Assembly (NCBI RefSeq): GCF_000484635.1
Contig: NZ_AXVM01000001.1
Location: forward strand, 620,001 to 684,000
Length of the DNA: 64,000 nucleotides
Source of the DNA: Comamonas badia DSM 17552
GTDB lineage: Bacteria; Pseudomonadota; Gammaproteobacteria; Burkholderiales; Burkholderiaceae_C
Direction of reading: 5' to 3'
The notes below the pieces were generated by a model, which was given only the letters and a program-made list of their open reading frames with translations, was not told where the DNA came from and did not search any database. This document shows positions 20,551 to 24,121 of this stretch, piece after piece; positions within the stretch are counted from its first letter, which is position 1; each line of letters starts with the position of its first letter. The position numbers and the translations under genes were made by a program.

Positions 20551-20919
20551 CTACGCGGCGACGATGCGGAACTCGGTGGCCTTGGCCACGGGGCGCACGG
20601 TGTTGCTTTCGCGCTTGAGATCGACGATGCCGTAATTGGACATGGTCTTGAGTGTGCGCGACAGGTTGCCCGGCTTGCGCCCGGTAGCCTGCGCCAGCGC
20701 CGAGATCGATTCGGGCTCGGTTTCGGCGATGACACGCAGCAAGGCGCGGTTGTCGTCGCTCAACACTTCGGCCAACGATTTCATTGAGGTGAACCAGACC
20801 TTGGGCTCGCCCGGCTTGGGCTTGTAGTCGCCACGCGCAATGGCCAGCACGCGCTGGCGAATCTGCTCTTGGGGCAGGATGCCGATGACGATGGATTTAG
20901 TAAAACCTGCGGTTTTCAT
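20551..20919 (-). CDS. tumA: TumA-type (HVO_A0114 family) antitoxin/HTH protein
   Basis: A 122-residue MarR-like helix-turn-helix protein of the HVO_A0114 family, the antitoxin and autoregulator of TumE-TumA toxin-antitoxin pairs. Characteristic segments are KVWFTSMKSLAEVLSDDNRA, then the helix-turn-helix SISALAQATGRKPGNLSRTLK and the wing GIVDLKRESNTVRPVAKATE. Its ATG overlaps the TGA of a degraded tumE frame (ATGA), the usual tumE-tumA arrangement. Because the toxin gene is broken, this antitoxin looks like an orphan survivor, perhaps kept as a regulator or simply not yet decayed. Confidence 0.8.
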   Translation of the reverse strand: MKTAGFTKSIVIGILPQEQIRQRVLAIARGDYKPKPGEPKVWFTSMKSLAEVLSDDNRALLRVIAETEPESISALAQATGRKPGNLSRTLKTMSNYGIVDLKRESNTVRPVAKATEFRIVAA

Positions 20920-21060
20920 GGCTTGCTCACCTCCAACAGCACGCGGTCAACGTCCGCGAAAAAGTCCTACAGCAGCTGCTGGGCATTTGCGTGCACCACC
21001 ATTCGAGCGGCCCGCCCTCGTCTCCAGTGCATTGCACAAGCGCTGCGATGCCACCGTGTA
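20916..21060 (-). pseudogene. tumE: Decayed tumE toxin gene (DUF6516), 3' remnant
   Basis: On the minus strand, directly overlapping the tumA start, the reading frame ends with DFFADVDRVLLEVSKP and stop (20916-20966), which matches the C-terminal end expected of TumE/DUF6516 toxins. It is preceded in frame by QQLL and then an amber stop (TAG at 20967-20969) in place of a sense codon. Further upstream, to about 21060, a shifted frame gives only faint resemblance to the family's conserved YDNE-GKGDH region. No intact start or full frame exists. The toxin therefore appears inactivated by at least one nonsense change and probably frameshifts. Confidence 0.6.
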
Positions 21061-21356
21061 GTTGCAGGCGAAGCAGATTATGAGAAAGCAAGCAAGCGCA
21101 AAGCAGGGTCAAGTTGGCAAATCCAATAGCGCTTTGCGCTTTGCCAGCGGGTGCTGGAGGCCGATTTGGCTTGAAAAATTCCAGGCGGCATCGTTTTGTG
21201 CCGTCAGCCCATCGCATGCGCCACCCCGCTGTCTCCATCACCCATCCGCAGCCACACCACTTCTGGGCGAACGCTGCATGCGCCGCACCAGTAGGCGAAC
21301 TGAAGTTGAAGTCCATGCCTTGGCTTCGAGGGGAACAACGTGTTGAGAAACTACAG
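21061..21356. other. Gene-free stretch between tumE remnant and MarR gene
   Basis: About 300 bp in which I cannot support a gene. A 96-codon plus-strand frame (21114-21404) and a 151-codon minus-strand frame (20927-21382) are open, but both overlap recognisable sequence and neither resembles a known family. It may contain further decayed mobile or toxin-antitoxin DNA. Confidence 0.5.
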
Positions 21357-21833
21357 CTAGCGGCCCATGCTCGCGGTAGCAATCTTCCAGAGCAATTCCA
21401 TTAGGACTAGACGCTCCCCTCGACTGAGACTGTTTAGCAGGTCAGTCTCCATCGTGGACGCAATGTCCAGGGCTTTGCCGACGAGTTGCTCTCCGGACTT
21501 CGAAAGCCTCAGGTGCTGAAATCGCTTGTCCACATCGCTCTGCTCTCGTGCAATCAAGTCACGCTCGCTAAGACGGTCAAGAAGCAGTGACATTCTCGCC
21601 GCTGAACTCGCGAGCGCTTGGCATAGCTGCTTGCTCGTGGCGCCTGGATTGCTGTGGATGAGAACGAGGATCGAGAACTCCACCTGCGTCACCTTGAATG
21701 GCTTGCCGATGTTGGAGACAAAGATCCTGAGCGTCGGGACGGAGGCCTGGGCCAAGTTGTAGCCCAACAAGGTCAACAGCTTCGAATGATCCAGCCCACC
21801 CGGAATTTCTTGTTGCACGCAATCCCCCTCCAT
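21357..21833 (-). CDS. MarR family transcriptional regulator
   Basis: A 158-residue MarR-type winged-helix regulator. The DNA-binding part reads SKQLCQALASSAARMSLLLD followed by RLSERDLIAREQSDVDKRFQHLRLSKSGEQL, which includes the beta-wing with the DKR motif. I placed the start at 21833 (MEGDCVQQ); the frame extends to 21944 but the extra residues are not family-like. It is divergent from a tannase/feruloyl esterase gene, a common arrangement in which a MarR repressor responds to an aromatic acid released by the enzyme. A perfect palindrome in the shared upstream region (22003-22014) could be its operator. Confidence 0.9.
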   Translation of the reverse strand: MEGDCVQQEIPGGLDHSKLLTLLGYNLAQASVPTLRIFVSNIGKPFKVTQVEFSILVLIHSNPGATSKQLCQALASSAARMSLLLDRLSERDLIAREQSDVDKRFQHLRLSKSGEQLVGKALDIASTMETDLLNSLSRGERLVLMELLWKIATASMGR

Positions 21834-21989
21834 GCGCGTGAGTCTAAGGCACGGCGCAGTTGGCTTCGGGCACCCGGGTTTATACCAATGGACCCACAAA
21901 TCGCCGTCACCTACATTAGTTATCAGAAAGAACTTATTTGTCACAAAATTTTATCGTTCTTCCTAATGAAGATAGATAGATTGATTATT

Positions 21990-22014
21990 TATAATAGTTT
22001 TTTTGATATATCAA
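21990..22014 (+). promoter_or_regulatory. Promoter and perfect palindrome upstream of the tannase gene
   Basis: The intergenic region 21834-22075 is very A/T-rich. It holds a consensus -10 hexamer TATAAT (21990-21995), and immediately after, around the expected transcription start, a perfect 12-bp palindrome TTGATATATCAA (22003-22014). MarR proteins usually bind short A/T-rich palindromes that overlap the start of the gene they repress, so this is a good operator candidate. No clear -35 is present. A GGAG ribosome-binding site lies at about 22064-22067, nine bases before the ATG. Confidence 0.6.
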
Positions 22015-22075
22015 TCGTCCGTGTAATACCGACTCGAAGCTCGGAACGAAAGACAGAATCCATTGGAGATAGCAC

Positions 22076-23812
22076 ATGAGAATTTTTAGGCCTTTTTCGA
22101 CTGTCGGTGCGATCCCACTCGCTAGCGCATTACTCATTGCGGGGTGTGGTGGCGGCTCTGATCCGACTCCTACGCAGCCAGGGCAGCCCGAGCTGCCTCG
22201 GTTGTCAGCAGCAGTTGGCGCACCGCTTCAGGGCACTTGCGACGCTCTCTTGTCGTTCAGCTTTCCTAATACGGCCATCTCATCCGTCACGACGGCTGTC
22301 GCTGGGTCACTGAAAGTAGCTGGGAAAGACATTGGCGCGCACTGCGTTGTCACCGGGAAGATGAATGAGCGCGTGAGCCCTGTAGACGGTCAAACATATG
22401 CTGTTAGCTTCCAGATGCGGCTCCCACTGGATTGGAATGGTCGCTATCTCTACCAAGGCAATGGGGGAACGGACGGCAGTGTGTCGAGTGCGACCGGCGC
22501 TGTGGGCAGTGGCGGCCCGTTGACCAACGCCCTTTACCGCGGGTTTGCCGTCATCTCATCTGATGCAGGGCACAGCTCCTCGCAAAACCCTCTATTCGGC
22601 ATGGACCCGGAAGCCCGCATTGACTACGGCTACGGAGCCGTAAAGAAATTGACCCCAATGGCCAAAGCCCTGATCAAGGCGGCATATGGGAAGGAACCCG
22701 ATAGGTCTTACGTCGGCGGCTCGTCGAACGGCGGCCGACACGCGATGGTCACGGCAGCTCGTCTCCCGCAGGACTACGATGGGGTGTTGGCGAACTCACC
22801 CGGCTTTAACCTGCCAAAAGCTGCCGCCGCTCAGCTGTACACCGCGCAGCAGTTCCGCAAGGTAGCGACAGACGAGAATGACTTGGCTACCGGCTTCACC
22901 GTCGCAGAGCGGCAAATAGTTGCGAAGAAGATTCTTGAACGTTGCGATGGTCTCGACGGAGTAACGGATGGACTTGTTCAGGACGTAGAAGCCTGCCAGA
23001 CGGCGTTCAACATTTTTGACCATGTACCCACCTGTTCCGGTGCGAGAGACGGAACCTGCCTCACGGTGGCGCAGAAGAGCGCCATCGATCTCATGTACGC
23101 AGGTCCGGTCAATAGCCGCGGTGAACGCCTTTATGCGACCCAGCCCTACGACCCTGGTCTGGCAGGCTCGGGGTGGGCGAGCTGGAAGTTCAGCAGTTCT
23201 GTGGGGGCGTCGCGCGATCCAGTCGCTGTCGGCATCATCTTCCAAGTGCCGCCGGACCCGACGATAGTGAGTAACACTCGTGCCTTCGCATTCAACTACA
23301 ACTTCGACATGGACTACCCGAAACTGTTTCAGACGAACGCGACCTATACGGAGAGTTCCTGGTCTTTCATGACGCCACCGAACCCCACGAAGCTGGACGC
23401 CTTGCGGGACAGGGGCGGCAAGATGATCGTCGTTCAGGGCGTTTCTGATGGTGTGTTTTCGATTGATGACACCAAGCGCTGGTACGACGAACTCGACACC
23501 GAGAACAAGGGTAAGGCCGCTGACTTCGCGCGCTTCTTTCGTGTGCCTGGCATGAATCACAGCAGCGGCGGAATTTCTACGGACCAGTACGACGCTCTCG
23601 ACGCATTAGTCAAATGGGTTGAGAAGGGCATCGCGCCTGATCAAATTGTTGCAACCGCTAGGGGCGAGGGCAACGCGGGCGGCGCGAATAGAGAAGTTCC
23701 GGCAGATTGGGCCGTGGACAGAACTCGCCCGCTCTGCCCTTATCCGTTGATTGCTCGTTACAACGGCACAGGGGACAGTGAGCGCGCTGAAAACTTTACC
23801 TGCAAGAAGTGA
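22076..23812 (+). CDS. Tannase/feruloyl esterase family lipoprotein
   Basis: A 578-residue alpha/beta hydrolase of the tannase/feruloyl-esterase family, expected to cleave esters of hydroxycinnamic or gallic acid. A lipoprotein signal (LASALLIAGCGGGSDPTP) predicts attachment to the outer membrane or periplasmic face. The nucleophile is S217 in GGSSNGGRHAM, the acid D458 (QGVSDGVFS) and the base H495 (PGMNHSSGG). In the family the residues beside the nucleophile and the histidine are normally cysteines forming a disulfide; here both are serine (S216, S496). CDGLDGVTDGLVQDVEAC is the usual lid-domain loop. Codon use is less GC-biased than its neighbours', suggesting transfer. Likely regulated by the divergent MarR gene. 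Confidence 0.88.
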   Translation: MRIFRPFSTVGAIPLASALLIAGCGGGSDPTPTQPGQPELPRLSAAVGAPLQGTCDALLSFSFPNTAISSVTTAVAGSLKVAGKDIGAHCVVTGKMNERVSPVDGQTYAVSFQMRLPLDWNGRYLYQGNGGTDGSVSSATGAVGSGGPLTNALYRGFAVISSDAGHSSSQNPLFGMDPEARIDYGYGAVKKLTPMAKALIKAAYGKEPDRSYVGGSSNGGRHAMVTAARLPQDYDGVLANSPGFNLPKAAAAQLYTAQQFRKVATDENDLATGFTVAERQIVAKKILERCDGLDGVTDGLVQDVEACQTAFNIFDHVPTCSGARDGTCLTVAQKSAIDLMYAGPVNSRGERLYATQPYDPGLAGSGWASWKFSSSVGASRDPVAVGIIFQVPPDPTIVSNTRAFAFNYNFDMDYPKLFQTNATYTESSWSFMTPPNPTKLDALRDRGGKMIVVQGVSDGVFSIDDTKRWYDELDTENKGKAADFARFFRVPGMNHSSGGISTDQYDALDALVKWVEKGIAPDQIVATARGEGNAGGANREVPADWAVDRTRPLCPYPLIARYNGTGDSERAENFTCKK

Positions 23813-23858
23813 CGGACAACTGCGACCTGAAGGCGCCCGCATAACGGCGCCCCTCGTG

Positions 23859-23894
23859 CCCTGCCAGAGAGTTTCTCCCTTGGCGGGGTTTCTT
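23859..23894 (+). terminator. Terminator after the tannase gene
   Basis: CCCTGCCA and TGGCGGGG pair around an inner GAGA/TCTC stem, followed by TTTCTT. The position, 47 bp after the tannase stop, and the hairpin-plus-T form fit a rho-independent terminator. Confidence 0.6.
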
Positions 23895-23938
23895 CTGTCT
23901 CTCCGGATGTACTATAGACCCGGCAATTAAGAATTGCA

Positions 23939-24121
23939 TCAGGCGGCATATTTGATCTTCGGGTCTTCGAAGTATGAGCGCGCACGCTGCGGGTTGTTGC
24001 CCAGCATGTTCATGTGCGCTTCTGTGGCGCGGCGCAGCTTATCTTTGGTGCGCACCTGCACACGTGAATCCAGCGCGTACTTGAGATCGGCATTGAGCCG
24101 CTCACCCTCACACGGGGTAGC
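23939..24121 (-). mobile_element. 3' remnant of an IS630-type transposase
   Basis: Sixty codons on the minus strand encode PCEGERLNADLKYALDSRVQ, then VRTKDKLRRATEAHMNMLG and a terminal RARSYFEDPKIKYAA. This is the C-terminal end typical of IS630-group transposases (N-x-DLK, a basic T-K/H-M-x-L region, YF-x-P-x-I-x-YAA). The rest of the transposase is missing: upstream in the same frame the sequence is already the stop codon of the ABC gene at 24122. Just beyond the 3' end a GCAATT-AAG-AATTGC dyad (23923-23937) and TA dinucleotides may mark the element's end. It bounds the lower-GC islet on its right side. Confidence 0.65.

Follow-up and report, generated by a model that had tools for sequence, protein, structure and literature searches.

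A tannase-family esterase lacking both active-site cysteines, and its natural disulfide-free relatives

In the MHETase of Ideonella sakaiensis, C224 and C529 form the active-site disulfide, and the feruloyl esterase FaeB of Aspergillus oryzae (3WMT), which has the tannase-family fold, carries the bridge C202-C458. The esterase encoded in the hca operon of Acinetobacter, which we take by name and function to be HcaG of A. baylyi ADP1, lacks both cysteines and has T/S or T/T in their place. The bridge counts as one of the family's hallmarks. In excerpts of the published accounts the disulfide is called typical of the family, over 80% conserved and not universal (Palm 2019, PMC6461665), and the ten cysteines of MHETase are called highly conserved across 6,671 sequences (Knott 2020, PMC7568301); published figures below 100% already imply the existence of bridge-less members. 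The MHETase variants C224A/C529A, C224W/C529S and C224H/C529F ended in inclusion bodies or were not expressed, according to an excerpt of the same study (Knott 2020, PMC7568301), and AoFaeB mutants are cited at second hand, in a portion of PMC8861512, as evidence that the bridge is important for activity. The literature searched, with few subscription papers in it, calls the disulfide conserved and describes neither the Cys-less clade that includes the hca-operon enzymes nor all-or-none pairing. Est_1092 was considered as a precedent and set aside as at most a putative member of the family, its paper likening it to a tannase-family enzyme.

The esterase and the register of its active site

The window, that is, the whole stretch of 64,000 nucleotides analysed, encodes an esterase of this family with serine at both cysteine positions. 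The open reading frame starts with ATG, and the features needed first are:

22076 to 23812, plus strand: tannase-family (PF07519) esterase gene, 578 aa (Pfam Tannase match; MHETase as best PDB match)
22136 to 22147, plus strand: lipobox I21-A22-G23-C24, predicted lipoprotein signal (from sequence; conservation of C24 among 62 relatives is 90% or more)
22721 to 22726, plus strand: S216-S217, serine where the bridge-forming cysteine would be, followed by the nucleophile (sequence and MHETase alignment)
23447 to 23449, plus strand: D458, catalytic acid (aligned with MHETase D492)
23558 to 23563, plus strand: H495-S496, catalytic histidine, then serine at the second cysteine position (aligned with MHETase H528-C529)

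The Pfam Tannase profile matched the protein with 487.9 bits (cut-off 29.8) over model positions 1-490 of 490. MHETase, whose structures include PDB 6QGA, 6QZ3 and 8EKG, gave the best matches among solved proteins, with E values from 2e-109 to 2e-104; fungal feruloyl esterases also ranked among the best. An AlphaFold2 model built from 62 sequences (mean pLDDT 92.7, pTM 0.90) superposed on MHETase with Z 47.2 and 1.6 Å over 514 residues, on feruloyl esterases with Z of about 36 (AoFaeB 35.9) and on the A. niger tannase with Z 28.6.

The nucleophile elbow G-x-S-x-G-G is present as G215-S216-S217-N218-G219-G220, and the triad is completed by D458 and H495. Aligned to MHETase, the pairs are S216/C224, S217/S225, D458/D492, H495/H528 and S496/C529; the codons are TCG (S216), TCG (S217), GAT (D458), CAC (H495) and AGC (S496), codon 216 starting at 22721 and codon 496 ending at 23563. 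The register of S216 and S496 is thus fixed by the sequence match and the model alignment together, and the flanking invariant residues agree. The original prediction had named exactly these residues and the span 22721-23563, and had stated that both cysteines of the CS-D-HC motif are absent together while Ser-Asp-His is kept; translation, MHETase register and model bear out each of these statements. A sequencing or alignment artefact, for which nothing was found, has a negligible probability: the register is anchored by the invariant neighbours, and relatives in independent genomes have the same residues, which refutes it. Because the residues flanking the catalytic serine and histidine are S216 and S496 and not cysteines, we assign the protein to the Pfam family only, outside the CS-D-HC enzymes.

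The cysteine pair across the family

The own genome and related genomes supplied 40 relatives and a genome collection 80 loci; further relatives came from 398 genomes of the phylum (with additional stretches), 369 of the class (searched with a distant query), 399 of the order and three plasmid records. Of the 191 family rows, both cysteines are present in 116 and missing in 73, two rows have a gap at one position, and no row has a single cysteine. That the pair is absent is therefore not chance: the two cysteines are gone together in 73 rows, and members with a single cysteine do not occur among the 191. The nearest relatives (84% identity) have S/S or T/S at the positions of 216 and 496.

On a tree of 133 rows filtered to at most 90% identity and built without columns 216 and 496, the pair label needs four changes, forced by well-supported branches, against 39.8 on average for shuffled labels. 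In a tree of 58 rows, 21 Cys-less rows including the window protein split off with ultrafast bootstrap 99 and SH-aLRT 98; all 200 bootstrap trees recovered this clade, which branches from within pair-bearing rows. It takes in Comamonadaceae, Acinetobacter, Mesopusillimonas, Arthrobacter and one Myxococcales MAG. A disulfide-free subfamily had been suspected from the sequence of the window alone, and the monophyly of the Cys-less clade supports it. In the alignment, 18 of 21 fully readable clade rows have Ser or Thr on both sides. For the clade of the window protein, and for a second small Cys-less group, loss of the pair is the simpler reading of the tree. For a large Cys-less group (GGS...HA/HG or GSS...HV) and two outlying rows on long branches, the change may have gone either way. 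Since the pair is lost or absent at three other places of the family tree, its absence is a recurrent variant and not unique to the window protein.

Is the clade still functional? Cysteines 55/90, 290/307, 320/328 and 554/576, the counterparts of the four other MHETase disulfides, are retained throughout the readable clade rows and in almost every family row. The fold, the triad, the oxyanion glycine and the calcium-site acids are likewise shared with MHETase; D291, D294 and D298 align with D304, D307 and D311, which are presumably the calcium-site residues of that enzyme. By the lipobox rule, I21-A22-G23-C24 with its conserved C24 predicts a lipoprotein. dN/dS between the window protein and four relatives is 0.04-0.09, about 0.05, a rough value because dS exceeds 1.6 and is saturated. 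With the eight other disulfide cysteines and the lipobox kept and dN/dS at about 0.05, the protein looks exported and functional, and it very probably has esterase activity.

Two other readings of the missing bridge have to be weighed against these data. Relocation of the enzyme to a reducing compartment, in which disulfides would no longer be useful, fits the loss of one disulfide and recalls the different redox setting that had been proposed; the eight other disulfide cysteines, present in all readable clade rows, and the lipobox cysteine speak against any such change of setting, and we regard relocation as ruled out for practical purposes. A catalytically dead or decaying member, with the disulfide lost under relaxed constraint, is very unlikely. 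The fate of the engineered MHETase variants, as given in the excerpt cited (PMC7568301), would fit decay, and so would a distant Cys-less member, L158, that has no serine nucleophile either; however, Ser, Asp and His of the triad are found in every readable clade row, dN/dS is about 0.05, and the clade spans Betaproteobacteria, Acinetobacter, Arthrobacter and a Myxococcales MAG. Judged from its sequences, the clade is apparently a version of this well-studied active site that occurs in nature without the disulfide and is kept by selection. Whole clades have lost the bridge naturally, always as a pair, in enzymes seemingly under selection, and as engineered removal is reported to be ruinous for MHETase expression, the clade represents a natural disulfide-free scaffold. 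It opens a direct experiment on what replaces the bridge and how this affects substrate, stability and expression.

Aligned family rows keep Ser-Asp-His except for two. L158 (G196:C1:79800-81800), a tannase-family protein, has Gln-Ala at the nucleophile elbow, thus Ala for the catalytic serine, and His-Gln; it may be a non-catalytic member. L095 (Acinetobacter ihumii) is incomplete, the copy looking interrupted by an early end. The copy of Hydrogenophaga palleronii (L028) also looks interrupted, being split over two frames.

Residues in place of the bridge

In 22 clade rows, residue 216 is T in 14, S in five, G in two and N in one, and residue 496 is S in 17, V in two, T and G in one each, with one unread. 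A hydroxyl pair is not required, since G/V and N/G substitutes occur within the clade. Three positions fully separate the clade from 37 pair-bearing sister rows: 216, 496 and 453, the last being V, I or L in 22 of 22 clade rows and Tyr in 37 of 37 sister rows. At position 240, every one of the 37 sister rows has Gly, where the clade has mostly Ser or Asn. In the window protein these sites are:

22793 to 22798, plus strand: N240-S241, end of strand 236-240; mostly Gly followed by Ala, Asp or Asn in pair-bearing enzymes (alignment; strand limits from the model)
23432 to 23437, plus strand: V453-Q454, within strand 449-455; the pair-bearing sister group mostly has Tyr-His here (alignment; strand limits from the model)

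In the AlphaFold2 model, strands 210-216, 236-240 and 449-455 have residues 216, 240/241 and 453/454, respectively, at or close to their ends; the general alpha/beta-hydrolase plan places these strands side by side in the core beneath the active site. Altered residues at these strand ends make a re-packed floor of the active site plausible in the clade. Ser217 and His495 would be positioned without a Cys-Cys bridge, which in the clade would be replaced mainly by a Ser/Thr pair that could hydrogen-bond or simply pack, accompanied by the changed residues at 240/241 and 453.

That these changes structurally compensate for the missing bridge is conceivable, although we would not bet on it. Two other Cys-less groups retain Phe or Tyr at 453, so the co-change there is not general, and the paired tests were non-significant; as a family-wide compensation rule 453 was rejected. 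Position 241 tracks the switch better, in 3.2 of 4 pairs on average, with significance out of reach. The independent-pairs tests are non-significant because there are only four switches. It is tempting to speculate further that the clade has evolved a compensated, disulfide-free tannase/MHETase site in which the bridge was swapped as a unit for Ser/Thr and re-packed strand ends (240/241, 453). If this rather tentative idea were true, it would offer a transferable way to MHETase-like enzymes that do not need a bridge of the C224-C529 type.

Substrate, genomic context and regulation

The Acinetobacter hca-operon esterase belongs to the same clade (99/98), with 63-67% identity to the window protein. 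On the A. indicus plasmid pAI01, the Cys-less relative is the last gene of a full hca-like run that begins with MarR, a transporter, hydroxycinnamoyl-CoA hydratase/lyase, aldehyde dehydrogenase and feruloyl-CoA synthase and continues with acyl-CoA dehydrogenase, an OprD porin, DUF3237 and a thioesterase. The hca cluster of ADP1 is listed as ACIAD1720-1728 in a part of PMC2265553, where a paper on chlorogenate/hydroxycinnamate genes (Smith 2003) is cited. Within the stretches examined, a feruloyl-CoA synthase gene is near 19 of 38 Cys-less loci, all 19 from Acinetobacter, and near 35 of 45 pair-bearing loci. As all 19 Acinetobacter loci have a clade member in an hca operon, the window protein, too, is likely a lipoprotein esterase for hydroxycinnamoyl esters of the chlorogenate or ferulate type. 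Another substrate had also been suggested from the sequence; pair-bearing relatives from Burkholderia sit in an operon similar to hca, and since both forms occur in such operons, the same substrate class appears more likely for the window protein than a new one.

The window gene itself is placed differently. It lies beside a MarR gene only, its neighbours being genes for MarR, an HTH protein and glutamate dehydrogenase; no hca genes were found at this locus, and a feruloyl-CoA-synthase-like gene is on another contig. There (L185, G000:C3:283000-302400) it is part of a beta-oxidation-type cluster with genes for enoyl-CoA hydratase, thiolase, short-chain dehydrogenase, periplasmic binding protein and acyl-CoA dehydrogenase, about 13 kb from a paralogue of the esterase (L013, G000:C3:302513-304189) that is 54% identical and of the same family, but retains CS...HC. 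A search of the own genome at 1e-30 gave no p-hydroxycinnamoyl-CoA hydratase/lyase like that of Acinetobacter. The 19 other Cys-less loci, among them those closest to the window gene, have no feruloyl-CoA synthase gene nearby, and a Pfam scan of the neighbours of L024, L030, L046, L029 and L049 gave no clear common pathway. In L024 and L026, both from Pseudacidovorax, the Cys-less gene adjoins, on the other strand, a further tannase-family gene (37-38% identical) that is of the CS/HC type.

Alternatively, the clade could be specialised for a different ester, such as a gallate, an aromatic diester or an MHET-like compound, the altered site being part of the change. MHETase is the closest solved fold, positions 240, 241, 453 and 454 near the site differ, and at half of the Cys-less loci there is no feruloyl-CoA synthase gene nearby. 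Against this reading, MHETase has S131, E226, H488 and the lid residues F415, S416 and S419; the window protein has G130, N218, Q454 and gaps at these lid positions, with only R380 aligned to R411. R411, F415, S416 and S419 presumably bind the free carboxylate, and MHETase identity was rejected on the lid residues. The Acinetobacter members in hca operons also argue against a different ester, which we consider unlikely, if well above the other rival readings. A hydroxycinnamoyl ester is our best guess for the window protein and has a slight edge over all else. Taken as a whole, the data are best explained by an exported, probably lipid-anchored, disulfide-free serine esterase with the usual triad Ser217-Asp458-His495 on an otherwise unchanged scaffold (the cysteines of four other disulfides, the calcium-site acids), which would most likely cleave hydroxycinnamoyl esters of the chlorogenate or feruloyl type outside the cytoplasm; we hold this explanation to be likely.

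Upstream of the esterase gene are:

21357 to 21944, minus strand: divergent MarR-family regulator gene (Pfam MarR_2, 9.7e-11)
22003 to 22014, no strand: perfect 12-base palindrome TTGATATATCAA in the interval separating the esterase gene from the divergent MarR gene; possible MarR operator

MarR relatives 63-67% identical lie beside the esterase gene in L030 and L046, and a divergent MarR gene is also found in L029. The window MarR is not close to the hca MarR of Acinetobacter (E 0.13), and its match to the NCBIfam family of the Saro_0803 regulator (2.9e-16) is far below the cut-off. Control of the esterase gene by MarR is fairly probable; most likely, the divergent regulator would act as its switch. 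The palindrome TTGATATATCAA has one match in the window against 0.02 expected. It was absent from the intergenic regions of the six related MarR-esterase pairs examined and was therefore rejected as a conserved operator. Near the MarR gene, at 20551-20919 on the minus strand, is the gene of the small HTH protein, which is of the HVO_A0114 type. In the window from 21000 to 24000, G+C is 0.51-0.59 over the MarR-esterase pair versus mostly 0.64-0.72 on either side, a dip that suggests recent acquisition of the pair.
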